Assembly: GCF_015291725.1 (NCBI RefSeq)
Contig: NZ_CP030038.1
Coordinates: 1,663,001 to 1,727,000, forward strand
Direction of reading: 5' to 3'
Length of the DNA: 64,000 nucleotides
DNA from: Bradyrhizobium sp. CCBAU 51765
GTDB taxonomy: Bacteria > Pseudomonadota > Alphaproteobacteria > Rhizobiales > Xanthobacteraceae
Below, piece after piece: positions 4,002-64,000 of the stretch (positions are counted from its first letter, which is position 1; every line of letters begins with the position of its first letter). Below the pieces are notes generated by a model. That model was not told where the DNA came from. It worked only from the letters and a program-made list of their open reading frames with translations, and made no database searches. A program made the position numbers and the translations under genes.

Positions 4002-4041
4002 CAATGGCTTCACGTTGAAACGGTTGCCGCGGGTGGCTCAG

Positions 4042-4194: not shown

Positions 4195-4325
4195 AGCGCA
4201 CCTCGCTCGTTGCAGCGATCAAGCCTCCCGCAAGAGGGCGGCATTCTTCTTGCTTGCATCCGGCCGCCGCAGGGATCAAGAATCTGTGGCACCCCCTCAA
4301 GAGCATGCGACCACGGAGTGTTTGA

Positions 4326-5351: not shown

Positions 5352-5385
5352 GGTCTCTTTCGCCTCTCCCTGCAAGCGAGCAGGG

Positions 5386-5583
5386 CTATCGCATATGACA
5401 GTGGGGGGTTGCCGGATGAGCCGGGCCTGCATGGTTCGAGACGCCCGCTTTGGCGGGCTCCTCACCATGAGGGTCTGATATCTCGCCGCAAAACGCGCCC
5501 TCATCCTGAGGGCCCGCCGGAGGCGGGCGTCTCGAAGGATGGCCGCAGGCGAGTTTCCCGCCGCGTTCCCTCATATGCGATAA
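5386..5583. repeat. Intergenic repeat family B, copy 1 (MITE-like)
   Basis: About 198 bases bounded by terminal inverted repeats ctatcgcatatga and tcatatgcgataa. Inside is a long inverted repeat: cgagacgcccgctttggcggg with a ccatgaggg shoulder on the left, and the matching ccctcatcctgaggg and ggcgggcgtctcg on the right. A second copy with the same layout is at 29711-29908. There is no coding capacity beyond chance frames. It fills most of the gap between the amidohydrolase and the monooxygenase gene. Confidence 0.85.
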
Positions 5584-5614
5584 CCCCTGCCGCGTGCGGA
5601 GGAGGGAGAAGAAC

Positions 5615-7323: not shown

Positions 7324-7505
7324 CACTTGGGCCCATGACGTCAGGCGGGGCCAAATCCCCGGTCCTGACGGAAGATTCAACTGCGCAAGAATCACCAAGA
7401 GGACCGTTCCTAACGGTCCACCCAGGCGAATTCTTGTCGATTTGCAGGCCGGTTTACAGGCGCAAGCTTGTGCGAGACCCCAACTCGACCAGCGAGCGGC
7501 CGACG

Positions 7506-7589
7506 ACCGAAAACCAAAGGCCGAAAATTAAAGGCCGAAAGTCAAAGACTGAAATCCAAAGTCCGAGAACTGAAGCTCGAACGTTGAAG
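7506..7589. repeat. Six degenerate 14-bp tandem repeats
   Basis: Six consecutive 14-base units, in order accgaaaaccaaag, gccgaaaattaaag, gccgaaagtcaaag, actgaaatccaaag, tccgagaactgaag, ctcgaacgttgaag; a decaying seventh may follow. The array is A-rich in a GC-rich genome and occupies part of the 301-base gap (7324-7624) between the transferase start and the small lysine-rich gene. No gene is seen in that gap. No role is evident. Confidence 0.75.
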
Positions 7590-7624
7590 TCTGGAGATTG
7601 CTGCGGCGTCCCGGCCGGCGAATC

Positions 7625-7795
7625 TTACTTCTTTTTCTTCTTGGTCTTCTTCGACCCGCCCAGCATCGAAAGGCTGGCGTCGACGTCCTTCAGCGCGGAT
7701 TGCAGCTTCTTCTTCTCGTTGGTCAGCAGCTTCTGGAGGGCCTTGCGGTCCTTGTCGCTCAACGAGGTGCCCTTGGTAAATTTGACGAAACCCAT
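7625..7795 (-). CDS. Small lysine-rich hypothetical protein (56 aa)
   Basis: 56 residues from the ATG at 7795, preceded by GGGGGAA. The product starts MGFVKFTKGTSLSDKDRKALQKLL, continues as a charged helix with leucine heptads, and ends in a very basic tail, GGSKKTKKKKK. It has no signal peptide and looks like a short coiled-coil or nucleic-acid-binding peptide. I do not recognise a named family. It lies between the synthetase and the transferase on the same strand, but the large gap before the transferase argues against tight coupling. Confidence 0.6.
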   Translation of the reverse strand: MGFVKFTKGTSLSDKDRKALQKLLTNEKKKLQSALKDVDASLSMLGGSKKTKKKKK

Positions 7796-7934
7796 AATAT
7801 TCCCCCGGTTGAAAACAATCGTCCAAATCGAAGCGCGAGAATAATCTTGCGCGGCGACGCCAAATAATCAAGACGCAACTTGATCATTCACAGCCTTCGC
7901 ACGTGAATCCGCACTCGTCCGCGACGCAATCCGC

Positions 7935-10900
7935 TCAGGCTGCCCTGCGTGCGAGTAACCGGCCGAGCGGTGTGTTGGGCTGCGCGACGGCCGCCGTCAG
8001 CAGCGCGACGAGATCGTCCATCCACTCGCCGACTATTCGGCCCGCGAGCAACTCGCGCTTGTAGTTGCATGAGCCGGTGATGCCGGTCGGCCGTTCCTTG
8101 AGCATCAGCGACAGCCGGGTCTGGTCGATCGGCAGCACCGGCTGGCCTTCGCGGGCGATGTTGCCGATCGATCCTGTCGCGAGATCGGGAAGATCGAGCG
8201 GCTGGCGCAGCGGATTCTGCAGCGTGAAATAGACCTGCAGCAGCGAGGCCGGATCGATCCCCTCCTGCTCCAGATGGTCGGCCAGGATACTGAACGGCAG
8301 CTCCTGCCGCGCATGCGCGTCGAGCACGCTCTGGCGCACCCGCACCAGGGCCTGCGCGAACGACAGCTCCGGCGTGATCGTCGTACGGACGATCACCGTG
8401 TTCTCGAACGGGCCGATGATGCGGTCGGTGTCCGGCTGGGCTCGATTGGCCATGGCGGTCGCGACCGCGATGTCGGTGCGGCCCGTCCGCGCCAGCAGCA
8501 TGCCCTTCAGGCCGGTGAGCAGGCACATGAACAGCGTGCAATTGTGCCGGCCGGCGAACGCCGTGAGCCGGCCGACCAGTTCACGCTCGAGGCTGACCGG
8601 ATGGTGCCCGGTGGATGCGCCCGGGCGTGCTTCGCCGTCGAAGACGGGACCCGCTCCGCGCAAATTCTCCGTCCAGTCTGACGCCTGGCGGCGGGCGGCG
8701 TCGGTATCGCACCACCAGCGCTGCCAGCGTGCGACAGCCGAATAAGCCGCTGGCGGCTTCGGCAGCGGCGCCGACGGATATCCGGCCAGCGCCGCATACC
8801 GGCTCGACAATTCCTCGAACAGCACGCCGATCGACCAGCCGTCGACAACGGCGTGATGCAGCGTCAGCAAGAGCACGTGGTCGTCGTCGTGGAGCCGCAA
8901 TAACCGGGCGCGCAGCAGCGGCGCGCGCGTGGTGTCGATCGGGGTATAGGTCTCCTGCTCGATCAGGAGATTGATCTTCCTGAGTTCGAGCGCCCTGCGC
9001 CGCTTGTTGTTGTGGGGCTGACCGTCGCCGATCGTCTCGACGGTCATGACGGGGCCAAGGGCGCGAGGCGCGACGATGCGGCTTTCGGGCTCCTCGCCGT
9101 TCCAGGTGAACGCGGTCCGCAGCGATTCGTGCCGGCGCACGACGTCGTCGATCGCCTTTGCCAGGGCGACCGGATCGAGCGGGCCCTCTAGACGGAACGC
9201 GAAGGGCAGGTTGAACAACGGCAGCTCCGGCAGATTCCGCTCGATCCGCAGCATCTGGTCCTGCGCGATGGAAAGCGCAGGAGGCCCGCTCGCGGCCAAT
9301 CGCGGCACGCCTGCGACAGGCTTGTGCGGCTTCGCCGCCACGGCCTCGTCGACCCGCCGAGCGAGCTCCTCGATCGTCGGTGCCTCGAAGATGGTCTTGA
9401 TCGGCAGCGACACGCCAAGCGCGCGCGCAACGCGCGCCATCGCCTGGCCGGCCAGCAGCGAATGGCCGCCGAGATCAAAGAAATTGTCGGTCACACCGAT
9501 GCTCTCCAGCTTCAGCAGGTCGACCCAGATGTCGGAGAGCACCTTTTCGGTGAAGCGCCGCGCCGGCACGGCCGCGTCCGGCCCGGACGTTTCCGGCGGG
9601 GCGGAGGCCAGCAGCGCGGAGCGGTCGATCTTGCCGTGGGCGTTGAGCGGCACCTGGTCCAGGAACAGGAAGGCGGACGGGATGGCGTGGGCTGACAGCC
9701 TGGCTTTCAGGAATTCGCGCAGCTCGCTGGCGCTGCTCCGGCGGCCGGGCTTGGCGACGATGTGGGCGATCAGCCTGATATCGCCGCTCGCCTCGCGGCG
9801 CGGCTCGACGATGCCGGCGCGCACGCCTGGATGATCGGCAAGCGCGTTCTCGATCTCCTTGAGCTCGATACGATGGCCGCGGATCTTGACCTGGTGGTCG
9901 GCACGGCCGAGGCATTCGATCGTCCCGTCGGCGCGGCGCCGGGCGAGATCGCCAGTCCGGTAGAGTCGGCTGCCTTGCTGGCGCGAGAACGGATCGGGGA
10001 GGAAGCGCTGCCGGCTTTGCGCGGGATCGTTGACATAGCCGCGGCCGACGCCGGCACCGCCGACGCAGAGTTCGCCGGTCACGCCGATCGGCTGCGGCTG
10101 GAGGTTTGCGTCGAGCACGTAGAGCTGGGTGTTCGGCAGCGGCGCGCCGACCGGAACGTTGCCGGTCGCGACCGCCGGGGCCTTGCTCAGGCGATGCAGG
10201 GAGACGTCGTCGGAGCACTCCGACGCGCCATAGGCATTGATCACCGGCACTTTCGGACAGCGGGCGAACCACGCGCGGCAGAGCTCGACGGGCAACGGCT
10301 CTCCGGTCGAGATCAGGAGACGCAACCTGGAGAAGGCGCGCAGCACCGGCACTTCCTCCAGGCGATCGAGAATGACGCGCAGCAGCGAAGGCACGATCTC
10401 GAGCACCGTGATGCCCTCACGCTCGATCTCCCGCGCCAGCAGGATCGGGTCCCGCGCGATCGCGTTGCCGCAGACATGCACGCGCGCGCCGACCATCGGC
10501 CCGGCGAGGAATTGCCAGACCGAGATGACGAAGCTCTGCGGCGCGGTCTGCGCGATCACGTCACCGGCGGAGAGGTCGAGCTCGGAGATGAGCGAAGCGA
10601 GGTGGTTCGACAGGCCGCGCTGCTCGATCATGACGCCCTTCGGCGCGCCGGAGGAGCCGGACGTATAGACGAGATAGGCGAGGCTGGAGGCGGCCCGCGC
10701 TGCGGCGCGAGCGGGCTTGGTCACCCCCGAGGCAATCGCGTCTTCGAGCGCGGCCACCTGGATGCGTTCGACCAGCGGCTCGAGCAGTGTCTCGACCATG
10801 GCGGACTGAGCCCGTCCGGTCAGCAGCACGCGGGCACAGCTCGATCCGAGGATGGTCGTGAGCTGGGCGGTCGGCTGGTCGGGATCGAGATTGAGGAAAG

Positions 10901-13900
10901 CCGCGCCGACGCGCTGCACCGCGATCATCGCAGCGAGCAGGTCGGGCCCGCGCTCCGCGAGCAAGGCGACGACGCTCTCGGCGCCGATACCCTCACGGGT
11001 CAGCCAGCGCGCGGCCGCCAGGCTGCGGTGCGCCAGCTCACGATAGCTCAGGGAGGTGCGGCCGTCCGACACCGCAACAGCGTTCGGCGTCTTCCTCGTC
11101 TGGCGTGCGAAGCGTTCGCTCAAATTGCCGCGCGTCGTGAAATTGGCCGGCACGCCCCGGCCCTTCGCCAGCAACAGCCGGCGTTCGGCCTCGGTCAGCA
11201 GCGGCAGGCGCGAGATGCGCTGTTCCGGATTGGCGATGACGGCCTTGAGCAGAGTCCTGAGCTGGGCGGCCATGCCTGCGATCGTCGCGGCGTCGAACAG
11301 ATCGGTGGCGTATTCGAAGAACCCGCTGAAGCGGCCATCGGCCTCGACCAGTTCGAGCGTAATGTCGAAGCGCGCCACCTTCGGATCGATTTCCAGCCGC
11401 CGTGCCGACAGGCCGGGAAAGCGTGCCGTCTCGATCGAGGCGTTCTGCAGGATGAACATGATCCGAAACAGCGGATTGCCGTCGCTGCGGCGCGCGATCT
11501 GGAGCGTGCGCAACACCTCCTCGATCGGGAGGTCCTGGTTGCGATAGGCGTCCAACGTGACCTGTCGCACCCGCCGCAACATCTCGCCGAAGCTCGGATC
11601 GCCGCTGAAATCGTTGCGCAGGATGAGGGTGTTGGCGAACAGCCCGATCAGGCGCTCGCTCTCGATCTGGTTGCGGTTGGCGATCAGCGATCCCGTCGCG
11701 ACATCCTCATGCGAGGTGTGGCGGAACAACAGGCACTGGAAGGCCGCCAGCAGCGTCATGAACGGTGTGACGCCCTGGCTCTGGCTCAGTGCGCGCAGAT
11801 CGCCCGACAGCGTTCTGGAAAATTCGAGATAGTGGCGCGCGCCGTGACCGCTCCAGACCTCCGGCCTGGGCCGGTCCGTTCGCAGCGGCAGCGTGGTGAC
11901 GCCGTTGAGCTTGGCCCTCCAATAATCGAGCTGCTCCTTCGCCGCCGGCGTCTGCGCCCAGCTCTGCTGCCAGAGCGCGAAGTCGCGATATTGGAACGCA
12001 GGCGGAGGCAGCGCGGCCGGTTGCGTCTTGCGTGCCGCGGCGTAGTGGACGGCAAGCTCCTCCCAGAACAGCCGCTGCGACCAGCCGTCGGTGACGAGAT
12101 GATGGACGTTGACCAACAGCGCATGGCTGTTTCCGTCGAACGACAGCAACGTGACCTTCAGCGGCGGCTCGTGAGCCAGGTCGAACGGATGTTGCGCGAG
12201 CTTGAGCGCCTCGCGCCGGACAACCGCCAGCCGCTTGCCGGCAGGGCAGGGCTTGAGCCTGATGCGCGCGAGTTGCGGCAGTGATGACAGCACAAGCTGC
12301 ACCGGTTCGCCCCGACGTTCGATGAAGATTGTGCGCAGCGCCTCATGGCGTGTGCAGATCGCAGTGAGGCTCGCAGAAAGCGCGGCGACGTCGACCGGGC
12401 CGTCGAGCAGCGCAACTTCGACGACATTGTAATTGTAACGGGTCGGGTCGAGCCGCGAGAGGACGTACATCCGCTGCTGCTGGAACGACAGCGGTGCGTC
12501 TACGCCCGTAGCGGGGCGCCAGGCCGGCAGCGCCGCCTCGCGCCGGCTCGCGGCGGTTTCGATCCGCGCCGCAAGTGCTACGACCGTGGTGCAATCGAAG
12601 ATGTCCTCGAACGAGAACTCGACATTGAAACGTTCGCGCAGGCGCGAGCGCATCTGCGTCACCGCGAGCGAGTCTGCGCCGAGCGCGAAGACGTCCTGGT
12701 CGGCGCCGAGCTGCGGCAGCTCCAGCAGACCGGCCCAGATTTCGGCGAGCTGGGCCTCCATCGCATTGTGCGGCAGCCGGGTCTCGTCACGGCCGTCTAC
12801 TGCTGCAATCAGTCCGGCCAGCGCACCGCGTTTGACCTTGCCGCTGGCGCCCTTCGGCAGTGCCGCGACGCTGCGGATCAGGCTCGGGACCTTGTAGGCT
12901 GCGAGCCGCTTTCGTGCGAACTGGCGCAGCTGGTCGGAAGTGGCCTCGGAATTCGGCCGCAGCACCACGACGGCGGCGACGTTCTCGCCAAGCTTCGGGT
13001 GCGGCACGGCAAACACGCCGGCCTCCAGCACCGCCGGGTGGCCGAGCAGGATTTCTTCCACCTCCAGCGGCGAGATCTTCTGCCCACCGCGGTTGATGAC
13101 GTCCTTGATGCGGCCGACGATGAAGAGATAGCCGTCGGCATCGAGATAGCCGAGGTCGCCGGTCCGGAACCAGCCATTGCGGAACGCAGCCTGCGTCGCC
13201 GCCTCGTCATTATAATAGCCGCGGCTCATGTTGGGCCCGCGCAGCATGATCTCGCCGCGTGCGCCGTTTGCAAGCGTGCGGCCCGTCTCGTCCATGATCG
13301 CGATCTCGGGGCCGGCGGCGCGGCCGACCGATCCGACCTTGCGCAGCTCGAACGGATTGGCCGCGATCTGCGAGGCCGCTTCCGTCATCCCGTAGGTCTC
13401 CAGCACGGGAACGCCGAACGTCGCCTCCAGCCCTCGAAGAATCGCAGGCGCGAGCGAGGCCGAGGCCGAGCGGATCACGCGCAGCGACGACGACCGGGCA
13501 CGGTCCGGGTTCGCTTCCGCCGCCGTCAGCAATGCGCGATGAATGGTCGGCACCGCCGTGTACCAGGTCGGTTGCAGCTCCCGCATCCAGCCGAAGAAGG
13601 ACGAAGAATCGAAGCCGTCGGTGCAGATCACGCTGGAGCCAGCGGCCAGCGCCGTGAGAAGGCCGGAGATCAAGCCATGGGCATGAAACAGCGGCAGGAC
13701 GTTGAGCAGGCGATCGCGCGACGTGAGCGACAGCACATGGCCGGCATTGTAAGCGGACAGGCAGACATTGCGATGCGTCAGCGGCACCATCTTCGGCCGC
13801 GCCGCCGTGCCTGACGTCAACAGGATGAACGCATCGTCGTCGCCGCGCGAGGGACCACTGGTGCTCGCCGGCCCGACCGAGGGGCCGATGAACGCGCAAC

Positions 13901-14378
13901 CGCCGAGATCGTCTTCCGGCCCCGGCACGAAATCGATCACCGCGATATCGAGCGTCCTGGCGACGTCGCGGCTCGCCGAGTTCATGTCGGCCCGGGTCAC
14001 GAGCGCCGCCAGCTTCAATTCGCTGAAATAACGTTGCAGCTCGTCCGCCGTCAGATCCGGACTGACGGGGATGCATACGGCGGCCGACGCGACCGCGATC
14101 AATGCCAACGCGCTGTCGGCGCCACGCGGCAGTGCAACTGCAATGCGGTCCGCAGGCGCGATGCCGAGCCCGCGCAGCGTGCCGATCAGATCCTGCGTCC
14201 GGTCGCCCAAGGTGCGGTAGGTGAGAACCGGCCGGCCAGGCGCGAGGAGTGCGGGCGCCGCCGGTGTCCTGCGCGCGTAGAACTCGAGAAGGCCGCTGAT
14301 ATGCGCGAATATCTTCGTTTCGGCCGTCGCACCGGCTGATCCTTCGTCTGCTCCGGATGCAATGTCCGACAACGCCAT
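7935..14378 (-). CDS. Nonribosomal peptide synthetase, A-T-C-A-T-C
   Basis: 2147 residues from the ATG at 14378 (MALSDIASG); the frame runs back to 14537 without family similarity. Order of domains: an acyl-CoA-ligase-like adenylation domain (core LLTSGTAARPKMVPLTH near residue 188); carrier (GADSL near 566); condensation domain (HHLVTDG near 761); second adenylation domain (YTSGSSGAPKG near 1243); carrier (LGGHSLLAG near 1639); final condensation domain (HHAVVDG near 1844). There is no thioesterase or reductase. The first A domain has no preceding C domain, so it is a loading module; the last C domain must pass the chain to a free amine/alcohol or another protein. The second A domain has Val where the alpha-amino-binding Asp235 is expected (FVISVWQ). 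The product is unknown. Confidence 0.9.
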   Translation of the reverse strand: MALSDIASGADEGSAGATAETKIFAHISGLLEFYARRTPAAPALLAPGRPVLTYRTLGDRTQDLIGTLRGLGIAPADRIAVALPRGADSALALIAVASAAVCIPVSPDLTADELQRYFSELKLAALVTRADMNSASRDVARTLDIAVIDFVPGPEDDLGGCAFIGPSVGPASTSGPSRGDDDAFILLTSGTAARPKMVPLTHRNVCLSAYNAGHVLSLTSRDRLLNVLPLFHAHGLISGLLTALAAGSSVICTDGFDSSSFFGWMRELQPTWYTAVPTIHRALLTAAEANPDRARSSSLRVIRSASASLAPAILRGLEATFGVPVLETYGMTEAASQIAANPFELRKVGSVGRAAGPEIAIMDETGRTLANGARGEIMLRGPNMSRGYYNDEAATQAAFRNGWFRTGDLGYLDADGYLFIVGRIKDVINRGGQKISPLEVEEILLGHPAVLEAGVFAVPHPKLGENVAAVVVLRPNSEATSDQLRQFARKRLAAYKVPSLIRSVAALPKGASGKVKRGALAGLIAAVDGRDETRLPHNAMEAQLAEIWAGLLELPQLGADQDVFALGADSLAVTQMRSRLRERFNVEFSFEDIFDCTTVVALAARIETAASRREAALPAWRPATGVDAPLSFQQQRMYVLSRLDPTRYNYNVVEVALLDGPVDVAALSASLTAICTRHEALRTIFIERRGEPVQLVLSSLPQLARIRLKPCPAGKRLAVVRREALKLAQHPFDLAHEPPLKVTLLSFDGNSHALLVNVHHLVTDGWSQRLFWEELAVHYAAARKTQPAALPPPAFQYRDFALWQQSWAQTPAAKEQLDYWRAKLNGVTTLPLRTDRPRPEVWSGHGARHYLEFSRTLSGDLRALSQSQGVTPFMTLLAAFQCLLFRHTSHEDVATGSLIANRNQIESERLIGLFANTLILRNDFSGDPSFGEMLRRVRQVTLDAYRNQDLPIEEVLRTLQIARRSDGNPLFRIMFILQNASIETARFPGLSARRLEIDPKVARFDITLELVEADGRFSGFFEYATDLFDAATIAGMAAQLRTLLKAVIANPEQRISRLPLLTEAERRLLLAKGRGVPANFTTRGNLSERFARQTRKTPNAVAVSDGRTSLSYRELAHRSLAAARWLTREGIGAESVVALLAERGPDLLAAMIAVQRVGAAFLNLDPDQPTAQLTTILGSSCARVLLTGRAQSAMVETLLEPLVERIQVAALEDAIASGVTKPARAAARAASSLAYLVYTSGSSGAPKGVMIEQRGLSNHLASLISELDLSAGDVIAQTAPQSFVISVWQFLAGPMVGARVHVCGNAIARDPILLAREIEREGITVLEIVPSLLRVILDRLEEVPVLRAFSRLRLLISTGEPLPVELCRAWFARCPKVPVINAYGASECSDDVSLHRLSKAPAVATGNVPVGAPLPNTQLYVLDANLQPQPIGVTGELCVGGAGVGRGYVNDPAQSRQRFLPDPFSRQQGSRLYRTGDLARRRADGTIECLGRADHQVKIRGHRIELKEIENALADHPGVRAGIVEPRREASGDIRLIAHIVAKPGRRSSASELREFLKARLSAHAIPSAFLFLDQVPLNAHGKIDRSALLASAPPETSGPDAAVPARRFTEKVLSDIWVDLLKLESIGVTDNFFDLGGHSLLAGQAMARVARALGVSLPIKTIFEAPTIEELARRVDEAVAAKPHKPVAGVPRLAASGPPALSIAQDQMLRIERNLPELPLFNLPFAFRLEGPLDPVALAKAIDDVVRRHESLRTAFTWNGEEPESRIVAPRALGPVMTVETIGDGQPHNNKRRRALELRKINLLIEQETYTPIDTTRAPLLRARLLRLHDDDHVLLLTLHHAVVDGWSIGVLFEELSSRYAALAGYPSAPLPKPPAAYSAVARWQRWWCDTDAARRQASDWTENLRGAGPVFDGEARPGASTGHHPVSLERELVGRLTAFAGRHNCTLFMCLLTGLKGMLLARTGRTDIAVATAMANRAQPDTDRIIGPFENTVIVRTTITPELSFAQALVRVRQSVLDAHARQELPFSILADHLEQEGIDPASLLQVYFTLQNPLRQPLDLPDLATGSIGNIAREGQPVLPIDQTRLSLMLKERPTGITGSCNYKRELLAGRIVGEWMDDLVALLTAAVAQPNTPLGRLLARRAA

Positions 14379-14514
14379 TCCCTTTTGATCCGATTGGGCT
14401 ATTCTTCCAAGAAGTTGGGGAACGCGTCCAGTCCGAGGTGAAGTTTGAGCCCCAAAATCTGTGGTTGAGGGGCATCGGAGCCCTTCGACGGAGTGATGGT
14501 CGGGCAGAATCACC

Positions 14515-17500
14515 ATGCTGGAGAATGAGCCGGGCACGGGGACGGAAGGCGAGCTGAAGCGCTGGCTCGACGGTATCGGCCTCGGTCACTACACCGATCT
14601 CTTCGCGCAGCACCGTCTCGATCTCGACGTGATCGGGGACCTGACCGAATCCGATCTGGTCGAACTCGGATTGCCGCTCGGCGATCGCAAGCGGATCCAG
14701 CGGGCGATGGCGGCGCTGTTTCAAGCGGAAACGGCGGAGGCGCCAATCGAGGCGGTGCGTCCGCAAGCACGGGCGGAGGTCGGAGCCGAACGGCGCCAGC
14801 TCACCACGATGTTCTGCGACATGGTGGATTCCACCTCGCTGTCCGCGCAGTTCGATCCCGAAGACGTCCGCGACATGATTGCGGGCTTCCGCGAAACCTG
14901 CGTTCGCGTGGTCAAGCATTATGAGGGCTTTGCCGCCCGTTTCGTCGGCGACGGTATCCTGGTCTATTTCGGCTATCCGACCGCACATGAGGACGATGCC
15001 GAGCGCGCGGTGCGCGCCGGGCTCGAGATCGTGCGGGTGCTGTCGACGGCGCACGCGGTCGAGCAGCGCGGTGCGCTCGGCCATTCACCCGCAGTCCGTA
15101 TCGGGATCGCGACCGGCCTCGTCGTGGTAGGCGACCTCGTCGGGCAGGGCACCGAAGAACGCGACTCCGCGGTCGGCGAAACCGTCAATCTCGCTGCGCG
15201 CCTGCAGGCCCTGGCGCCGCCCAATGGCGTGGTGATCTCGGCTGCGACGCAGTCGCTGCTGAAGGGGAAGTTCGACTACCGCAATCTCGGCGTCCATGTC
15301 CTGAAGGGGATCCCCGAGAAGGCACAGGCCTGGCACGTGGTGCGCGCCTCGCGGGTGGAGACCCGCTTCGCCGCCGCCAGGGGCTCGCGGTTGACGCCGC
15401 TCGTCAACCGCGAGGAGGAGATCGCGCTGTTGATGGGGCGCTGGCAGCAGGCCAAGGACGGCGACGGCCAGGTCGTGGTCAAGTTCGGCGAGCCCGGCAT
15501 CGGCAAGTCGCGCATCATCCAGGAGATCTTCGAGCGGATATCGGGCGACCGCCATGGACAAGTCTCGCTCCAATGCTCGCCCTACTACACCTCCACGGCG
15601 TTCCATCCGTTCGTCGACCAGCTCAAATTCTCCCTCGGCCTCGATCGCGAGGAGTCGTCCGCGCTGTCGCTCGCGAGCCTTGAGACCGCGATCGCCGCCG
15701 CTCATGGCGACATCGAGCAGGTCACGCCGCTGTTTGCCGCGCTGCTGTCGATACCGACCGGGAACCGCTATCCGCCGCTCGAACTGTCGCCGCGGCAGCA
15801 GAAGGATGCGACCGTCGTGGCGCTAGTCGACCACTTCCTCGGCCTTGCGCGCGAGATGCCGCTGGTGATCGCGTTCGAGGACCTGCACTGGATCGACCCG
15901 ACGTCCCGCGAAGTGATCGACCTTCTGGTCGACCGGGTGCAGAACCGGCCGATCCTGGTCATCATCACCGCGCGCTCCGAATTCCAGCCGAGCTGGAACG
16001 CGCATTCACACATCACCACCGTGGTCCTGAACCGCCTGAGCCGGCAATTGCGCACGACGCTGGTCGAGCGCGTGGCGGGACGCGAGCTGCCCAAGGAGGT
16101 CGTCGAGGAGATCATCGTCAAGACCGACGGCGTGCCGCTGTTTTTGGAAGAGCTGACCAAGACGGTTCTCGAATCCGACCTGCTGACCGAGCGGCACGGG
16201 CGCTATGTGCTGTCCGGGCCGTGGCGGCAGCTTGCAATCCCGGCAACCCTGACCGACTCGCTGATGGCGCGGCTCGACCGGATGGGACCGTTCAAGCGGA
16301 TCGCGCAGATCGGCGCCACGATAGGTCGCGAGTTCTCCTACGAGACGCTGCACGCCGTCGCCAACACGCCGGCCGAGCAGATCGTGGCGGCACTCAATCA
16401 TCTGGAGGATGCGGGGCTGATCATGCGCCGCGGCCATCCACCGGACGCGCTCTACTCCTTCAAGCACGTGATGATCCAGAACGCCGCGCATGCGAGCCTG
16501 TTGCACAGCGAGCGGCGCAAGCTGCATTCCCGGATCGTGCAGGTGCTTTCCGAATTGTATCCGGAGAAGTCCGAGCGCGAGCCGGAGCTGCTCGCCCATC
16601 ACCTGACCGAATCCGGCCAGAGCGAGGGCGCCGCCAGCTTTTGGCTGAAGGCCGGCAAGCAGGCGGCGAGGAGCGGCGCCAATCTGGAGGCGATCGGCCA
16701 TCTGCGCCGCGGCCTCAGCGTCGTGCACGCCAGCGCGGGCATACCGGGGGCCGACGTGATGGAGCTCGAGCTGCGCATCGCATTGGGCAATTCGCTGATT
16801 GCCGCCAAGGGCTATGCGGTGCAGGAAGTCGAGGAAAACTACATCCGCGCGCTGGAGCTCGGCCATCAGCTCGATGACGACGAAAAGGTCTTCGCGGCCA
16901 CTCGCGGACTCTGGGTGTGCCATTTCATCCGCGCCGATCTCACCCGCGCGCACGATCTCAGCGTCGAGTTGTTGAGATTCGCCAAGCGGCAGCGGCTGAG
17001 CGAGCGTTCGCAGCCGGCGCAGCAGACCGGGTATCTGATCGAGGCGCACCGTTCGATCGCGATGACCATGCTCTATCGCGGCCGCTTTGCCGCCTCGCAG
17101 CATCATCTGCACCGCTGCATCAATCTCTACAGCCCCGATTTGCACTCCGACCTGATGGAGCGGCACGGCACCGATCCCGGCGTCGTCTCGCTGTCCTATC
17201 TCGGCTATCTCCTCTGGTTCCTCGGCCGGCCCGACGCGGCGCGCCAGCACAGCGAGCAGGCGATCGCCAATGCCGAGAAGATCCGCCATCCCTTCACGCT
17301 CGCCTTTGCGCTCGTGTTCGGCGCCTATCTCTGCCAGCATCTGCGTGACGTCGAGGGTACGCGCGACCACGCCAACCGCGCCATGATCATCGCCAGCGAG
17401 CACAATTTCCTGCACTGGAAGCAGCAGGCGACGATCCTGCGCGGCTGGGCGCTGACGCAGCTCGGCGAGACCGACGAAGGCCTCAGCCAGATGCGCTTCG

Positions 17501-57381: not shown

Positions 57382-57427
57382 CCCTCTCAAGGCTGAAACA
57401 GGGGTTCGATTCCCCTAGGGAGCGCCA
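57382..57427 (+). tRNA. 3' half of tRNA-Glu(CTC), remnant / attachment site
   Basis: Anticodon loop CTCTCAA (anticodon CTC), 3' stem GGCTG, T arm AGGGG-TTCGATT-CCCCT, 3' acceptor strand AGGGAGC, G, CCA. Upstream bases (aatcgatttttcc) do not give a D arm or 5' acceptor strand, so the gene is cut at the anticodon stem. This is the expected footprint of an integrase that recombines in the anticodon region. The intact tRNA-Glu gene is not in the window. Confidence 0.82.
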
Positions 57428-57558
57428 GAAATTTCAATGCCTTAGAGCTTGAACTGAAAAGTCGTCGAATATCCGTTGAATAAGCGTCGACGAACGTTGG
57501 CGAACCCCGCCGCACTAATTTAGTGATCCGGTGGCAACTTCGTGCGCCGAATTCAGAG

Positions 57559-58755
57559 CTACGCGTCATAAAGTTCATGCGCGAACATGCGGATCTCGCT
57601 GGACGCAGCATCGCCTAGCGCCCGGAGGTAATCGAGAAACTCTTGCGGATTGCTCATCGAGAAAATGCGCGCGCGGTAGTTCAGCTCGGAACGAAGCCGG
57701 CCTTGCTGTAACAAAGACGAGCATTGCCGATCGACAAACATGGCATCGACATATGGCGCATAGGTCGCGATCGCCGTAAAATCGCTAAGGATGCCCGCAC
57801 TCAATTTTGGGCTTTGTCCCGACGAGACGCGCCAGCCGAGCGCAGCCATAAGATAGGCGAATATTTTATGCGCCGGCTGCTGCTCGTTGCCTTTCCAATC
57901 AAGGAAGGTAGACACGTCCTTGCCGGGCACGGCACGCTTGGCGAATAGGGTCGCGAGCTCCTTGTACCTGTTTTGCAAGCCGAAGCTTATATCCAGCACG
58001 CTGGATGGATCATCGGATGCAAAAGCCGCGTAGCTTCGCTTCACTTCCTCTTGGACGGCGTAGCGCATGGCCGGCCCATAGCTTGAGAGCTCATGCTTCA
58101 GGACCTGATCAAAGGTAGCTCGGTTCTTCACCCAGCCTTCCGCCAGCTGTTTCAGGCTGTCCTCGGCCGTTGCCTTGCTCTTCCGTAAGCCCGGCGCAAA
58201 CATCGAATAGTCGGAGTTCACCCCGATATGATAGATCGGTAGCCAGACATTGCGATCGCCGGACAACACGTCGTCAACGTTGAAGCTCAGGGCAGGTGGT
58301 CCTTCCCCGCTGAGATAGGCTTCGGCAAATATCCACTCCTGCAGGCGGGCGATACTGTCGCTGTTCTCGAATCGCGTCTCGCCGCTGAACATCTCGTGCG
58401 CGAGACGGAGCTCCTCTGGCGAATGGAAAACAATCGTCTCGTCGGAATGAAGATTCGAGAATGGAAAGATGACCTGTTGCCTCAAATACGCGCGGTTGGC
58501 GAGCGCGTAGCAATCCTGCCAGAATTGCTCACTAGGTGCGCCGACGCGCCGCGTCTTTGTTTTGGTTTTGTATAGCTCACTGACGGCGAACTGGTCGAGG
58601 TAGACAACACGCTTATCCAGATCGGGAAGAATCTCTCCGTGCGAATAGCGACATTCTGCGCAGCGCTTCTCCGCTACGTTGCCGCCGACAGAAAGCGTGC
58701 CAAACGCTTCCGCTCTGCATTTCGGGCATTTTCGATATGGCGGCAATTCAAACAT
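57559..58755 (-). CDS. Zinc-ribbon plus PIN-like putative nuclease in ubiquitin-like operon
   Basis: 398 residues, start 52 bases after the E1 stop. The N-terminus is a zinc ribbon: Cys10-x2-Cys13 and Cys32-x2-Cys35. It is followed by VVYLDQFAVSEL (Asp54), a first acidic strand as in PIN nucleases. A helical middle leads to a conserved-looking acidic end: ILSDFTAIATYAPYVDAMFVDRQC, whose spaced Asp residues resemble PIN-like active sites. I therefore predict an RNase/DNase-like toxin or effector, but the PIN assignment is by eye only. Last gene of the ubiquitin-like operon; composition is less GC-rich than the core genome. Confidence 0.6.
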   Translation of the reverse strand: MFELPPYRKCPKCRAEAFGTLSVGGNVAEKRCAECRYSHGEILPDLDKRVVYLDQFAVSELYKTKTKTRRVGAPSEQFWQDCYALANRAYLRQQVIFPFSNLHSDETIVFHSPEELRLAHEMFSGETRFENSDSIARLQEWIFAEAYLSGEGPPALSFNVDDVLSGDRNVWLPIYHIGVNSDYSMFAPGLRKSKATAEDSLKQLAEGWVKNRATFDQVLKHELSSYGPAMRYAVQEEVKRSYAAFASDDPSSVLDISFGLQNRYKELATLFAKRAVPGKDVSTFLDWKGNEQQPAHKIFAYLMAALGWRVSSGQSPKLSAGILSDFTAIATYAPYVDAMFVDRQCSSLLQQGRLRSELNYRARIFSMSNPQEFLDYLRALGDAASSEIRMFAHELYDA

Positions 58756-58807
58756 GCGGCGGTGTCAGGATCGAAAACATCAATTAGCAGGAAGAGGCGT
58801 ACGCCCG

Positions 58808-60172
58808 TCACGCGGCTGCTGCGACACTGCCAGGATTGAAGGCCTGCAGCGCGGGTCCCTCGATCGCAGTGAAATCTCTTGGATCGCGCAGGTGGATCGA
58901 AACGAGTTCGTAGGATTGTCCACCCATACAAAGCCTCACAAGTTCGCTGATGGCGAGCGCTGCGGCCACTGAACCGACAAACGGGGCGCCAATCGATCGG
59001 CCAGCCAGCCTTATGGTCCCGCAGCGGTCGCCCGACTTCTCCAACATTGCGCGATAGGCGGGGAGGGTGATGTCCGCGTCCGATGATCCAGCCTGCGACC
59101 ACACCTCTCGGGCAGGTATGGACGACGGAAATGTGTGTAGGTCGATCCCGAGGAAATCCTGCGGCCCTCGCCCGAGACCTGCTTCGATCACTCGGCCGAA
59201 TCCCACGTCCTCGATCGCTTGCCGTGCAAGTGCATTGTCTACGCCGATCAATGCTACACTAGGCTCCCGAGGCCCGACCACAAAGTTTGGCGCGAAGTCT
59301 CGCTCGACAATTGAGGCTTCGAAGCCTCGGGCTTCAGCCCATGCTGCCATCGCACGCGTCTTCTTGGTGCGGAGCATGGTGCGTGTGGTCAACATTGACG
59401 TGCTGAGATTTGAAGGCGCGACGACATCAGTGTCCTGTAAGACTACGCGCAGGGCCTTGTGACCGTAGGGCAGAAGCCCGAGCGTCCAAAGGTAGGCCTG
59501 CCCGAGGTTACCCATACCTACCATCCAAATATCAGAAGGAAGTCGATCTAGCGAAGGTCCGCTTGCTCCCTTCAGCCAGTCACGGCGCAGGTCCCAAAGA
59601 TCGAGTCCGACAGTTCGGCGGCAGGCGATCGGCGTACCGCCGCGCGCACGCTGGAACAACTCGGCAACACCGAGTGATCCCGCCAGGACTCCGGCCGGCG
59701 TGAAGACGCCCGTTTCAGCGAGGCGCAGTCTGCTGCTTGCTGGCACGACCCCGCCGCACCAGTCTGCAAAAGTGACGCGCAATGCAAGCGGTTCGAGGTC
59801 GACGCTGCCTATCGGCCCTATCACCAGCGTTGGTAGATCCTTGCGGACGTCACTTGCGACGCGTCCACCCAAGCCCGCCACCGCGTTCTCGACGCTTTCA
59901 AAGCCCGGGATCGAAACTAGTAGGCTGCCTCGTGCCCCTATGACGCTGACGCCGCCGAGAAATGCGCGTGCTCCGGAATTCACCGCAGTCAGCAGGGCGG
60001 CTTGCAACACCGCGCTGTCTGCGACGTCTGGCCCGACTACGATTTGCATGCGATACCCGGCGAAGATGCGTTCGGCTTCGTCTATGGTGGAAGCCTCGCC
60101 GGTGTCGAGCGCGATCTTAACTAGACGGTTGAGCCCATCGGCCTTCGCTTCGAGTTCAGTCATGCCGTTCAT
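58808..60172 (-). CDS. ThiF-type E1-like ubiquitin-activating protein
   Basis: 454 residues from the ATG at 60172 with GGAGAATAAC upstream, one base after the JAB stop. The first 200 residues are an extra domain of unknown or inactive-adenylation type. Then a ThiF fold: nucleotide loop GMGNLG (residues 219-224), VVLQDTDVVAPSNLSTSM (ATP/Mg Asp and the SNL segment). A candidate catalytic Cys384 lies in DRCGTIRLAGRSIGAPFVGSVAAALAISELVR. Such proteins adenylate the C-terminus of a ubiquitin-like protein and take it up as a thioester. No E2 is fused, unlike CBASS Cap2. Confidence 0.87.
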   Translation of the reverse strand: MNGMTELEAKADGLNRLVKIALDTGEASTIDEAERIFAGYRMQIVVGPDVADSAVLQAALLTAVNSGARAFLGGVSVIGARGSLLVSIPGFESVENAVAGLGGRVASDVRKDLPTLVIGPIGSVDLEPLALRVTFADWCGGVVPASSRLRLAETGVFTPAGVLAGSLGVAELFQRARGGTPIACRRTVGLDLWDLRRDWLKGASGPSLDRLPSDIWMVGMGNLGQAYLWTLGLLPYGHKALRVVLQDTDVVAPSNLSTSMLTTRTMLRTKKTRAMAAWAEARGFEASIVERDFAPNFVVGPREPSVALIGVDNALARQAIEDVGFGRVIEAGLGRGPQDFLGIDLHTFPSSIPAREVWSQAGSSDADITLPAYRAMLEKSGDRCGTIRLAGRSIGAPFVGSVAAALAISELVRLCMGGQSYELVSIHLRDPRDFTAIEGPALQAFNPGSVAAAA

Positions 60173-60173
60173 G

Positions 60174-60638
60174 TTATTCTCCAATCTTGAGGGTCGAGCC
60201 GCGGCAGCCGCCACGAGGCTGCCAACGATGATCACCCAAATATTCGTAAACCCCGACGCTCCATCGTCGTATGGGCGGCTTGGCCATGCGAGGCAGAATG
60301 ATCGCGATGTGACCGGGACGCGCGATCATCGGATTTTGGCGATCGGAGCTGCTTTGGCCGGCTCCGAGCGGATGGACGTGCGCGTCGGCGATAACTGTCA
60401 TTTCCAGCTCTGAGCATCTGTCCCACAGCCTTGAGAAGGCGTCGGCGTGCAAAATGCAGACGCCCGAATCATATGCGCCGCGATCGAGTTCGTCGTAGTA
60501 GACGAGCTTCAAAGCTCGACGCTCACCTTCTGTACGGTGACCAAGGAGAAACGCTCCGGATTCGTGTCGATTCTCCGTTTTGCGATGAAGCTCGGATGTG
60601 AGTTCGGTCCACAGGGGGCGCGCGATATGCAGAGCCAT
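60174..60638 (-). CDS. JAB/JAMM-family metalloprotease (deubiquitinase-like)
   Basis: 154 residues from the ATG at 60638, one base after the E2 stop. JAMM zinc site: Glu26 (RHESGAFLLG), then His87-Val-His89-Pro and Ser96/Asp99 in HVHPLGAGQSSSDR, i.e. the HxHP-x5-SxxD form found in prokaryotic JABs, followed by NPMIARPGHIAIILP. In ubiquitin-like operons this protease trims the Ubl precursor or removes it from targets. The Ubl here already ends in Gly, so deconjugation is the likelier job. Confidence 0.9.
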   Translation of the reverse strand: MALHIARPLWTELTSELHRKTENRHESGAFLLGHRTEGERRALKLVYYDELDRGAYDSGVCILHADAFSRLWDRCSELEMTVIADAHVHPLGAGQSSSDRQNPMIARPGHIAIILPRMAKPPIRRWSVGVYEYLGDHRWQPRGGCRGSTLKIGE

Positions 60639-60639
60639 G

Positions 60640-61107
60640 TCAACCCGCCTGTCCCAAATAGTCGCCGGAATTGAGCAAGTCATGAACGATGCGCAGGTAG
60701 TGCACGATGCCGACCGACGGGTCCCAAATCAGGCTGGGATGTTCTCCGTACCAGTTTGCATGGCCCTCGATGGATTGGCGGTCGCACGGGAGGTAAAGAC
60801 ACGATCCGTTCTTCCATCCTGGATTGAAGGCCAGCGGAATGCGGCTCCTTCCTTTGGGCCATTGATTGTTGGCCAAGGGTGCATCACGAGCGATGTCCCA
60901 AGGCCGTGCCGTCGGCGGCGTTCGCGGGTAGCCGCAACATTCAAAGCGAAGGCCGTATTTTACGCCGTCCGCGGCCCGCACGCCGAATACTGCGTACGGC
61001 CAACTTACGGAAACCAGGCGCCATCTTCCCGACGAGGCGCCGAGCAGGAAACTTCCGCTCGCGAGATGCGCGCGGAAGACCTTCTCGTCCGGTGCTGCGA
61101 CCGCCAT
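60640..61107 (-). CDS. E2-like ubiquitin-conjugating protein
   Basis: 155 residues from the ATG at 61107, four bases after the Ubl stop. The C-terminal half has the E2-family pattern of bacterial conjugation operons: [45 protein letters not shown]. Cys103 and Cys108 are both present; LPCDR (Cys108) is the likelier thioester site. The N-terminal half has [18 protein letters not shown] beta strands, as in the UBC meander. It would accept the Ubl from E1 and pass it to a target. Confidence 0.78.
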
Positions 61108-61111
61108 TGCG

Positions 61112-61627
61112 TCAGCCCTCCACCCGCTTCCGCGGCACAAGATCGAGCTCAACAGAACACACCTTGCCACTGGTAAGAGCACCGATATGCACGTCGCGGT
61201 CAGGACGCTTTTGCGTGCCGCGGATTTCCAGCACGTGTTCCGCAGCGTCGCGCGGGGAAAGGCCGAATTTTCGTCGCGCCGCCCAGTGATGGACCCGCCC
61301 GATCGTGGCGCTCGGCGGGAATTTGCGCTTGGCAACTTCCCCGTTGAACCGCACCGATACCTCGACATGACGGCATCGCGTCACGTGGAGCTTGAGCGGG
61401 ATGAGGATCGCCTCCTCATCGGTGCAAAGGGGGAGCAGCTCCTCCACGATGGTCTCCAGACCGAGCGGCGCGTGCGCGTCCTCAGCGAAGACCAGGAGCT
61501 CCTCAGGATTGCCGAGAGAAGGTGCGAGGTTCGCAAGAATCTCGGCGATCGAGTGGATCGGAGCCGCCTGGCCGACCAAGATCTCGGAAAATTCTCCACC
61601 CTGGATGAACACGTCGATTGACTTCAT
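61112..61627 (-). CDS. Tandem ubiquitin-like protein ending in glycine
   Basis: 171 residues; AAGGGA lies seven bases upstream of the ATG at 61627. The protein looks like two beta-grasp units: residues about 1-80 ([14 protein letters not shown] up to [10 protein letters not shown]) and about 84-167 ([34 protein letters not shown] up to [12 protein letters not shown]). It ends VEG immediately before the stop, giving an exposed C-terminal glycine suitable for adenylation. Gene order directly upstream of E2, JAB and E1 supports a conjugatable ubiquitin-like modifier comparable to BilA. Confidence 0.82.
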
Positions 61628-61719
61628 TGTATGTCCCTTATTTTCGCGCCGCCCGGCAATCGGAACAGCTGCTCAAAGGGTAAGTCGCGGCGTGTTGAAA
61701 AAACCGGAAGTCGGGACGA

Positions 61720-64000
61720 TCAGTCCGGGACCGCCCTGCAGATGAAATAATGGGGGCAGCGTGGGCAGTCGTCAGATGGCTTAGCGGGGAAGGCCCCTTG
61801 CCCTAAGCCCGACAATGCGGCGGACGCTCGCTCCAATCGGTCCTGCATAACGCCATCCAGCTTAACGGGCATCTCATCGTCGGTGGACAGATAGCGAATC
61901 CGGAAGTTGCCCTTTCCGCCAAGCGTTTGTTCCGCGGCTTCGAGCATCAGAGCATGCAGCAGCCGCTGGTCAGGCGTCGATGGTGCTCGTCCCGTTCGCA
62001 ACCGTCGGACGATTAGATTGCGGCCGGTCTGTTCGATCTCATCGATTTCCAACCGCACCGAATGCCCGCCAACGTTGACGGACACGGTTTCCGCGATGCG
62101 TATTCCCGAACGCGACCTATGCCGTTCGCGCTCAAGCATCTGTTCGGCTGAGGTCCGATAAACCAGTTCCAGCGGATTTCCCACGGGACCAGTCTCGGCC
62201 CAGCGCGCGTCGAACTCTGCCTTGATCTGAGCGGCATCAACCGCGCCGGTCTGTTGCGAGAGCCAGCGCAGCACTCGGTAGACAGTGCGGTGAAAATGGA
62301 CGAAGCCGTTGTCTTGGCGCGACCGGCTCAGTCCGAGCACGACTTGATAGAGATAGCGACGAGGGCACTCGTCGTACGTCTCAATGTCGCGGCCGTCGTG
62401 CTCACGCCCGTCTACCTTCAAATCGGGCCGCAGCGGATCTTGCGCCCGCGCTGGCAAGGTCGTTGTCCAAGTGGGAGCAGAGTTTGGAGGGCGCGGCAAA
62501 TGGGACGCGATCGCTTCCAGCGCCAATGAAGGTTTAGAGACACCGCGCTCGTTATACCGCTCCGCGCGCGACAGAGAGAGATGATCTCTTCCGCGAGATA
62601 GTGCGACGAAGAACAGGCATTCCTCTTCCTCGGCTTTTGAGTCCTCGACCGGCGTTTCAAGCATTCCATCGGGGGCGGGACACACCGAGCCGCCGCCACC
62701 GCTGAGCGGAAACATGCCCCTTCCCAGGCCCGGAAGATGAACGACGTCGAACTCCAACCCCTTACTCAAGTGGACCGTCATCAGACGGACCGCGTCAATC
62801 CCATCGACCGCGGCCGGCAGTTCGCGCAAGGAGCGATCGTCTCCGAAGACCGCAAGCCTCCTGATCCAGTCCAGAAATTGCCGTTTCGGGTCGGTTTGAC
62901 CTGATGTGTCATTCTCCGCCGCGAATTGCAGCAACTGGTGAATCGCCAGCCGTCGCTGCTGATCTGCGGGTGTCACTCCGGGGAGATAATCGCGTACCAG
63001 TCCTCGTTCGAATAGAAGATCGAACAGCATCTGGCCAGGTCCGGTCTTGAAGCCGATTGCATCGAGGTCAACGCGCAGCTGGTGCAGAGCCTTCTTGCCG
63101 TCCGACGAAATGTCGGGCATGGCGTCCAACGCCTTAAGCGCCGCCAGCGGCGTCTTATCCATCTCATCTGCTACTGCGAGAAACTTCTGCACGTCCGAAA
63201 GCATCATGCGATAGCGCGGCAAGGTTGCCGCACGCATCAGCCCCGCACGATGGGGCTCGGAGACAAATGAGATTAGAGACAAAAGGTCCCTGACTTCCTC
63301 CCGCTCGAATATGTCCCCGAGATTGAGGACTGGAACGCCTGCCGCCTCCAACCCCGCTGCGATTTTCTGCAAATAAGAGTGGCCCCGGCAGAGGATCGCT
63401 TGATTTCTGTAGTCACGCCCTTGCGCGCGGTATTGATTGATGATTGCCGCGAGCCCAGCAATTTCACCCTCGCGATCACGCGCCACGTTGAAGTTAACCG
63501 GCGCCGTTCCAAGCCCGCGCTTGGCTTCAAGACTATTACCGCGACACCGTCCGATCTCCATCTGGTCGGCATACGTCACGAACGCATCAACGATCTGCTT
63601 TCGCGAGCGGTAGTTTATAGCGAGCGCCTTTCGCTTGGCGTTCGGATAATCCTTCTCGAAGTTGGTGGTGTTGGTCGGCGCGGCGCCGCGGAACCGGTAG
63701 ATCGACTGCCGCGCATCTCCCACGACCCAAAGGGTCTTGCCTTCGCCTGCCAGCTCTTTCAGGAGCAACGCACTGGCGCGGTTCACATCTTGATATTCGT
63801 CGACCAGGATGTGCAGATATTGACCGCGGATTTCATCGCGAATCTCCGGATGGTTCCGAAGGATTTCAATCGGGCGGTTGATTAGGTCTGCAAAGTCAAC
63901 AATACCCTCTGCGCGCAGGCGATCCTCATAGTAGCGGTAGACACCAGCGACCTCGGCCGTCTTCTGCGCGCGCAGAATGCGCTTCTCGTCATGATCTGCC
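61720..64000 (-). CDS. UvrD-type helicase with C-terminal Fe-S nuclease-like domain, 5'-partial
   Basis: 759 residues are visible; the frame is open to the right edge. Superfamily 1 motifs appear in order: IVDFADLINR, ILVDEYQDVNRA (Walker B), VVGDARQSIYRFRGA, AINYRSRKQIVDAF, and MTVHLSKGLEFDVVHLPGLGRGMFP. The Walker A part is off the window. The C-terminal 250 residues resemble AddB/Cas4-like PD-(D/E)XK domains: YDECPRRYLYQVVLGLSR, LEIDEIEQTG, VRRLRTGR, then DDCPRCPHYFIC. The four cysteines needed for a 4Fe-4S cluster are present, but the expected acidic-x-Lys motif is replaced by RRLR. The Ubl gene starts 92 bases downstream. Confidence 0.87.
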   Translation of the reverse strand, partial: ADHDEKRILRAQKTAEVAGVYRYYEDRLRAEGIVDFADLINRPIEILRNHPEIRDEIRGQYLHILVDEYQDVNRASALLLKELAGEGKTLWVVGDARQSIYRFRGAAPTNTTNFEKDYPNAKRKALAINYRSRKQIVDAFVTYADQMEIGRCRGNSLEAKRGLGTAPVNFNVARDREGEIAGLAAIINQYRAQGRDYRNQAILCRGHSYLQKIAAGLEAAGVPVLNLGDIFEREEVRDLLSLISFVSEPHRAGLMRAATLPRYRMMLSDVQKFLAVADEMDKTPLAALKALDAMPDISSDGKKALHQLRVDLDAIGFKTGPGQMLFDLLFERGLVRDYLPGVTPADQQRRLAIHQLLQFAAENDTSGQTDPKRQFLDWIRRLAVFGDDRSLRELPAAVDGIDAVRLMTVHLSKGLEFDVVHLPGLGRGMFPLSGGGGSVCPAPDGMLETPVEDSKAEEEECLFFVALSRGRDHLSLSRAERYNERGVSKPSLALEAIASHLPRPPNSAPTWTTTLPARAQDPLRPDLKVDGREHDGRDIETYDECPRRYLYQVVLGLSRSRQDNGFVHFHRTVYRVLRWLSQQTGAVDAAQIKAEFDARWAETGPVGNPLELVYRTSAEQMLERERHRSRSGIRIAETVSVNVGGHSVRLEIDEIEQTGRNLIVRRLRTGRAPSTPDQRLLHALMLEAAEQTLGGKGNFRIRYLSTDDEMPVKLDGVMQDRLERASAALSGLGQGAFPAKPSDDCPRCPHYFICRAVPD

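Follow-up and report, generated by a model that had tools for sequence, protein, structure and literature searches.

A Bil operon of Bradyrhizobium preceded by a sigma-like factor and helicase module that may act as a DNA-triggered switch

The right-hand end of the window, as we call the 64,000 nucleotides of Bradyrhizobium sp. CCBAU 51765 analysed here (contig NZ_CP030038.1; G000:C1:1,663,001-1,727,000 of an 8.4-Mb chromosome), carries a minus-strand operon for ubiquitin-like (Ubl) protein conjugation that, judged by its PADLOC matches, is Bil itself, an already known defence system. The operon is the downstream part of an array of seven genes in the order SIG, H, helicase fusion, BilA, BilB, BilC and BilD, the first three of which encode a sigma-70-like protein (SIG), a small helical protein (H) and a fusion of an M78 (ImmA/IrrE) peptidase, a UvrD helicase and a degenerate PD-(D/E)XK domain (Table 1). 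The same three-gene module recurs upstream of related Bil operons and beside unrelated multiubiquitin operons. On balance, we think it probable that this module is a switch operated by DNA, H being cleaved by the protease that is coupled to the helicase. A broader proposal, to which we give about even chances, is that two or more Ubl systems of independent origin have one mobile three-gene device in common, as a front end that senses DNA or as an E3-like targeting subunit, and would be triggered by DNA rather than constitutive. A partner common to two unrelated conjugation families points to one answer on what triggers bacterial ubiquitin-like conjugation or how its targets are chosen. If the proposal is correct, the four-gene Bil unit is usually a seven-gene unit among the relatives of the window Bil.

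The Bil core

A first-pass annotation of the window, made from its letters alone, had proposed a conjugation operon with separate E1 and E2 components, distinct from the fused kind found in CBASS (cyclic oligonucleotide-based antiphage signalling systems), and had assigned it to the Bil/Bub group. The gene coordinates and the gaps that it gave are exact: 92 bases separate the helicase gene from BilA, 4 lie between BilA and BilB, 1 between BilB and BilC, 1 between BilC and BilD, and 52 between BilD and the following gene for a 398-residue protein. Its assignment of the 155- and 454-residue proteins to E2 and E1, a check set beforehand, is upheld by the PADLOC models BilB and BilD. All four PADLOC Bil models cover BilA to BilD nearly full length with the Bil gene order kept, so that the group assignment stands and can be narrowed to Bil itself. 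The CBASS label was dropped on the same grounds, as type II CBASS has a fused E1-E2 (Cap2) whereas E1 and E2 are separate genes in the window and match BilD and BilB. Pfam is weaker on this core: the E2 is recognized as DUF7665, ThiF (the E1) and Prok-JAB fall under Pfam's own cut-offs, and the Ubl protein, BilA, has no Pfam match.

Genome contigs were searched with a BilD alignment, and the best 80 of 127 relatives, with 39-93% BilD identity, were taken as a survey of Bil loci. BilA, BilB, BilC and BilD are all present in 76 of these 80, which upholds the second check set beforehand, that the genes co-occur in other genomes. Three of the incomplete loci (L021, L023 and L063) end at a contig edge; the fourth, L053, lacks BilA and the first part of BilB, and transposase-like open reading frames (ORFs), identified by eye, adjoin. 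The catalytic residues of all four proteins are present in the window and conserved among the relatives. The reactive C-terminal Gly of BilA is G in 77 of 77 aligned sequences, the active-site Cys of BilB is found in 77/79 and the His immediately after it in 79/79, each of the JAMM residues E, H, H, S and D of BilC is present in 81/81, and so is the Cys of the BilD D-x-C-G motif (81/81). The window operon therefore shares with Bil the same four proteins, their order and their catalytic residues; the published unit consists of four genes (PMC11354881, cited from part of its text), whereas here three more precede them and one lineage-specific gene follows. By analogy, BilABCD may be expected to act against phages in this organism and to attach BilA to a virion protein. 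A weak BilB match in another genome (G105, E=5e-4; L009 and L014) was set aside, there being no other Bil gene beside it. In another Bil array, L013 (G284), the helicase, BilB and BilD all seem to be frameshifted, through either decay or sequencing error.

The module upstream of Bil in relatives

SIG, H, the M78 part, UvrD, the nuclease-like part and BilA to BilC were located in the surveyed loci with iterated profiles. Sixty-five loci extend at least 6.9 kb upstream of BilD and 15 are shorter; in 62 of the 65, the SIG-H-helicase module and BilA to BilC all lie on one strand, a count that describes the relatives nearest to the window. These loci come from Proteobacteria, Acidobacteria, Chloroflexi and Planctomycetes. 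The helicase is thus an ordinary companion of Bil and not one of the unusual partners that had been suspected; that description fits the 398-residue gene, which accompanies Bil in the window and one other locus (L015) and probably does not belong to the system.

The three exceptions are of two kinds. In Bradyrhizobium barranii (L015:7666-8454; BilD 93% identical), the helicase has lost its beginning and a large share of its middle, neither SIG nor H remains and, by eye, transposase-like ORFs lie upstream, while bilABCD and the 398-residue gene are still open; this Bil locus is decaying. In L061 and L070, the module is replaced by a divergent single-gene protein with a helix-turn-helix (HTH) and an M78 domain (M78 38.5 and 59.5 bits, respectively, against a cut-off of 22; the HTH of the L061 protein falls slightly below its cut-off), which by domain content is a like-for-like regulator swap. 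The L070 Bil operon and its divergent HTH-M78 regulator (around 2800-15250) lie, by eye, amid prophage-like genes. Among the 15 short loci, the helicase is partly visible in eight and not visible in seven; of the latter, L021, L023, L026 and L063 end short of it, transposase-like ORFs break up L053, and L025 and L091 are taken up below. Overall, helicase sequence precedes BilA in 71 of the 75 loci in which that stretch is visible.

Peptidase, helicase and nuclease-like domains

The SIG stop and H start codons overlap as ATGA, and H overlaps the start of the helicase-fusion gene by 8 bases. This last gene is cut by the window edge at position 64000, and its M78 part, H and SIG all lie beyond that edge. 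It had been described as a helicase-nuclease; the UvrD helicase is confirmed, the nuclease looks catalytically dead, and an M78 domain is to be added. Pfam recognizes M78 (35.3 bits, cut-off 22), UvrD-helicase (5.5e-69) and PDDEXK_1 (3.9e-14, above cut-off). Motifs were counted with the frameshifted L013 and the duplicates L088 and L057 excluded. The HExxH of the M78 domain is present in all 63 fusions linked to Bil and all 14 linked to multiubiquitin operons, and the helicase Walker A and DExQD box are intact.

The nuclease site presents a different picture. Motif III reads VRRLRTG in the window fusion, and its Asp position is occupied in the 63 Bil-linked fusions by R (57), K (4), H (1) or L (1), with no acidic residue in any of them or in the 14 multiubiquitin-linked fusions; the Lys position is R in 49 and K in 14. 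Two further PDDEXK_1 proteins encoded in the same genome, probably AddB and AddA, retain LDYKTG and VDFKTN. With the catalytic (D/E)xK of motif III replaced, the working nuclease expected from the PDDEXK_1 match was dropped as an interpretation. The motif II Asp is retained in 40 of the 63 Bil-linked fusions, and four Cys of the domain are invariant in both the Bil-linked and the multiubiquitin-linked sets. Four such Cys hold an Fe-S (iron-sulphur) cluster in AddB-like proteins. From this pattern of loss and conservation, we infer a domain that binds DNA without cutting it. A PDB sequence search with the nuclease domain returned nothing useful, and viral contigs searched with the helicase yielded nothing beyond generic UvrD relatives, whose best segments are 23-44% identical and whose matches never extend to the ImmA part of the query.

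The fusion shares its UvrD helicase and PD-(D/E)XK_1 fold with Gabija GajB and with AddAB/RecB, and differs from them in the lost nuclease site, the added M78 domain and the lack of a GajA neighbour. Its likeness to GajB is strong (best match to the GajB helicase models of the PADLOC library E=6e-69) and, together with the above-cut-off PDDEXK_1 match, could mean that two systems are stacked here, the fusion being a defence effector in its own right, Gabija-like or RecBCD-like, with a regulator and an operon in common with Bil. This seems quite improbable. The neighbours of the fusion are H/SIG and BilA in the same 62 of 65 loci, not GajA, which led us to drop the Gabija label; the motif III Asp position is without an acidic residue throughout; and just one of 17 plasmid regions, described below, is devoid of any Ubl gene, and there the helicase is broken.

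The module beside multiubiquitin operons

A whole-length match to the helicase fusion was found in at least 5 of 385 genomes of the class, a search in which two candidates were scored per genome so that carriers may be missed, and a Ubl operon adjoins it in all five. Besides the window genome, they comprise two with Bil (L128 and L129) and two without (L130 and L131); in the latter two, the module is followed by Multi_ubiq, DUF6791/ThiF and DUF6527 or by Multi_ubiq/Prok-E2_E and JAB/ThiF. These operons fit the fifth operon type of Iyer et al. 2006 (row 6e), which combines a multi-Ubl protein, an E1 with a JAB or other domain, an E2-like protein and a treble-clef protein (PMC1779556, in part). 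A search with H across 398 genomes of the phylum recovered the window genome and five others; a Ubl operon adjoins in 6/6 and, in the five, it is of the multiubiquitin type. Counted as distinct genomes found from the module side, 10 of 10 have an adjoining Ubl operon, 3 Bil and 7 multiubiquitin. Multiubiquitin operons and Bil use different Ubl, E1 and E2 families, and the SIG-H-helicase module is common to Bil and some multiubiquitin lineages: it is present at L130, L131, L243-L247, L258-L261, L265, L268, L269 and L271, its carriers including alpha-, beta- and gammaproteobacteria, a cyanobacterium and Abditibacteriota. The Robbsia and Abditibacteriota modules are oriented divergently to their Ubl operons, which argues that the adjacency is not mere read-through. 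One of these loci, on a plasmid of Rhizobium sp. C104 (L268:11249-15677), has the module, multiubiquitin, a separate E2/UBC gene, ThiF, an annotated phosphotransferase gene and DUF6527. The window genome itself has a second, unrelated Ubl system (Multi_ubiq, a DUF6791-type E1 and DUF6527) that is without the helicase module. The module was not found in the parts to hand of PMC13373217, PMC11354881, PMC11364771, PMC10952713 and PMC1779556, nor were the words 'sigma', 'helicase', 'UvrD' or 'RecB' in the main text of the last; the primary Bil papers lie outside this set and we make no claim that the module is unreported.

Plasmids extend the association. The helicase is matched at E <= 1e-60 in 93 plasmid records, 45 of them from Acinetobacter, and in 17 regions chosen for diversity a Ubl operon adjoins it in 15 (7 Bil, 8 multiubiquitin). 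Of the other two, a P. koreensis plasmid has a multiubiquitin ORF 6.4 kb away, past IS66 genes, and the second is the one with the broken helicase. A tree was built from 86 helicase fusions, 72 linked to Bil and 14 to multiubiquitin operons; it is without L271 (its helicase missed the score filter), L267 and L273, and at least one pair in it, L085 and L128, is a duplicate. In this tree, 13 of the 14 multiubiquitin-linked sequences form one clade with support 1.0, and the Ubl-type label changes twice, compared with at least 10 changes in 500 shuffles. Judged by this tree, the Ubl partner has been exchanged rarely and the module and the Ubl operons are not random neighbours.

These associations would also be expected if the helicase fusion were a working part of conjugation, an E3-like factor that moves along phage DNA and delivers E2~Ubl to phage proteins bound to DNA or in the course of assembly, with SIG and H having only a regulatory role. 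We regard this as unlikely, and as the main rival to the switch because the module is found only with Ubl operons. We know of no E3 in Bil or in the multiubiquitin operon type, and the fusion accompanies both of these unrelated types; its lineage tracks the Ubl type, as for a co-adapted partner, and a domain that has lost its nuclease site yet kept four Cys is what a binding platform might look like. Against an E3-like part, bilABCD alone is sufficient in E. coli, four Bil loci (L025, L061, L070 and L091) are without a helicase directly upstream of BilA, two of them having HTH-M78 regulators instead, and 9 of 11 multiubiquitin genomes examined are without the helicase. The description of Bil as a four-gene system (PMC11354881, in part) and the block of phage by a Collimonas system through Ubl attachment to the central tail fibre (PMC11364771, in part) point the same way.

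SIG and H

SIG of the window genome matches Sigma70_r4_2 with 31.6 bits (cut-off 25.7), and sigma region 4 is also above cut-off in SIG of L012 and L267. Sigma region 2 exceeds its cut-off only in the Abditibacteriota SIG (Sigma70_r2, 39.1 bits, cut-off 24). At L265 and L271 the SIG profile is silent although an ORF occupies its place, the L271 ORF being recognized by Pfam as sigma region 2, and at L268 SIG is split. Neither SIG nor H is represented among the PADLOC models.

An AlphaFold model of H, for which 47 homologues were aligned under the Afipia sequence (itself 74% identical to H of the window genome), is helical, with a predicted local distance difference test score (pLDDT) of 90.6 and a predicted template-modelling score of 0.61. 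Residues 92-160 superpose on XRE domains, with Z scores of 8.0 for NGO0477, 7.3 for CapH (1.7 Å over 61 residues), 7.1 for SinR, 6.8 for ImmR and 6.5 for DdrO; the structural comparisons span residues 91-160 of H only. H may therefore carry an XRE-like domain, a likeness that is suggestive only, since XRE folds are common and the Foldseek search was not significant.

A proposed DNA-triggered switch

Several regulators pair an M78 peptidase with a partner of XRE-like fold. ImmR is cut by ImmA and DdrO by IrrE, both M78 proteases. For CapP/CapH, cleavage of CapH is activated by single-stranded DNA (PMC13373217, in part). The module, with an M78 peptidase and a partner of possibly XRE-like fold beside an immune operon, resembles all three pairs, and differs from them in that its peptidase is fused to a helicase and a nuclease-like domain and that a sigma-like factor is added. 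We propose that similar logic would apply here, the protease itself containing the DNA sensor. The helicase part would engage abnormal or single-stranded DNA arising from phage replication or DNA damage, and this engagement would activate the attached M78 peptidase, which would cleave H. As H may be a repressor, a holder of SIG or both, SIG would drive the operon after H is cleaved. BilD would then activate BilA and BilB would conjugate it to phage virion proteins, presumably as reported for Bil elsewhere, with BilC both processing and deconjugating BilA. The same module would control the unrelated multiubiquitin-type operons that carry it. We favour this switch because HTH-M78 proteins replace the module at L061 and L070 and because CapHP, CapW and CapKS are reported to accompany Bub, CBASS and five Bil operons (PMC13373217, in part).

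A number of observations weigh against it. The module is not obligatory for Bil, being absent as a helicase directly before BilA from the four loci named above. In L025 (2-956), a divergent SIG (185 bits) lies 0.2 kb before BilA with no helicase between them, and in L091 (1-3042), where BilA to BilD are present, the 3 kb before BilA hold other ORFs, which run on the opposite strand; these two loci lowered our confidence slightly. In a reverse set of 12 multiubiquitin genomes, of which 11 were examined (G355 was left out), only G560 and G361 have the module; five of the nine regions without it have an opposite-strand ORF with an ImmA domain nearby. The Roseomonas plasmid carries the helicase, broken into several ORFs, with no Ubl gene at all. 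The module has been seen only beside Ubl operons, when a general switch might also adjoin CBASS and the like, and such exclusive company also fits a direct functional partner. SIG copies are uneven, those of L131 and L260 being under the sigma-70 cut-offs and that of L259 having no Pfam match. H belongs to no Pfam family; its highest Z score is to an uncharacterised XRE-like protein, NGO0477, unrelated XRE-domain proteins score almost as high, and its best Foldseek E value is 0.1. A scan for sigma-70-like promoters placed one upstream of SIG, with 2 in the region against 2.4 expected by chance, and the promoter and terminator scan as a whole is at chance level.

Another reading is that Bil and the module respond to genotoxic stress generally, as a UvrD-led repair or stress response of which phage defence is one outcome. 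Of 544 Bub operons, 219 have the DNA-damage regulators CapW or CapH plus CapP with them, five Bil operons are preceded by capKS, and phage protection by Bub is not shown (PMC13373217, in part). We nevertheless hold this to be very improbable, given that the Collimonas Bil acts on phage tails (PMC11364771, in part) and that the presence of the module on many plasmids suits defence or mobility.

Gene coordinates and surroundings of the array

Table 1. Features of the Bil array and related loci, in window numbering unless a locus is named.
Feature	Coordinates	Strand	Basis
SIG, sigma-70-like, 256 aa	65713-66483	(-)	Pfam Sigma70_r4_2
H, small helical protein	65081-65716	(-)	start codon read from sequence; AlphaFold
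M78 (ImmA/IrrE) - UvrD - degenerate PD-(D/E)XK fusion, 1122 aa	61720-65088 (L002:8720-12088)	(-)	Pfam
BilA, two-domain Ubl, 171 aa	61112-61627	(-)	PADLOC BilA E=7.2e-52
BilB, E2-like conjugating enzyme, 155 aa	60640-61107	(-)	PADLOC BilB E=2.7e-62; Pfam DUF7665 E=6.3e-65
BilC, JAMM/JAB isopeptidase, 154 aa, E...HxH...SxxD intact	60174-60638	(-)	PADLOC BilC E=3e-60
BilD, E1-like activating enzyme, 454 aa	58808-60172	(-)	PADLOC BilD E=3.7e-162
Four-Cys (zinc-ribbon-like) protein, 398 aa, remainder possibly PIN-like	57559-58755	(-)	Cys conservation
Attachment-site scar, 47-bp exact copy of tRNA-Glu(CTC) 3' half	57382-57428	(+)	sequence repeat
Second Ubl system of the window genome	L253 (G000:C1:7098001-7118000), ORFs ~7702-9312		

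The 398-residue gene that follows BilD adjoins Bil in just two of the 80 surveyed loci, the window and B. barranii, and has homologues elsewhere; it was rejected as a member of the Bil system and is probably lineage-specific cargo. It had been annotated as zinc-ribbon/PIN-like. The zinc ribbon rests on four Cys that are invariant in four homologues, Pfam Zn_ribbon_TFIIB scoring 12 bits, under its cut-off of 22. The PIN-like part is not confirmed: the protein has no PADLOC or PDB sequence match, its AlphaFold model is unusable (pLDDT 33.6), and the conserved YLDQ and VDAMF-D are only suggestive of a PIN acidic cluster. One homologue, in L136, adjoins by eye a ribonucleotide-reductase-like ORF. 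Another, on the Rhizobium plasmid CP049733.1 (L135:5968-11936), lies tail-to-tail with a different JAB/E1 operon, composed of small-protein, Metal_CEHH, JAB and E1-N-ThiF genes plus a divergent HTH and ImmA/IrrE pair; of its E1 and JAB proteins, PADLOC matched only the JAB (BilC, 54 bits). This context leaves room for a loose tie of the 398-residue gene to conjugation operons.

The tRNA scar at the left of the operon, taken in the first-pass annotation as its boundary, is real as a repeat and places the operon elsewhere than supposed. Its 47 bases are an exact copy from tRNA-Glu(CTC), the intact gene for which is at ~1,479,800 on the same chromosome; the 47 bases within that gene begin 240,553 bases to the left of the scar. 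The gene after the intact tRNA matches DUF6538 above cut-off and a phage integrase below cut-off. The first 57.4 kb of the window would accordingly be the right end of an integrated element of ~240.6 kb (G000:C1:1479800-1720428), and the operon sits outside it, 130 bp to its right. The G+C content falls from ~0.66 in mid-window to 0.54-0.62 past position 56,000 and the array has an AbiEii-like gene and a C5 methylase as neighbours, from which the Bil array itself is probably also in acquired DNA.

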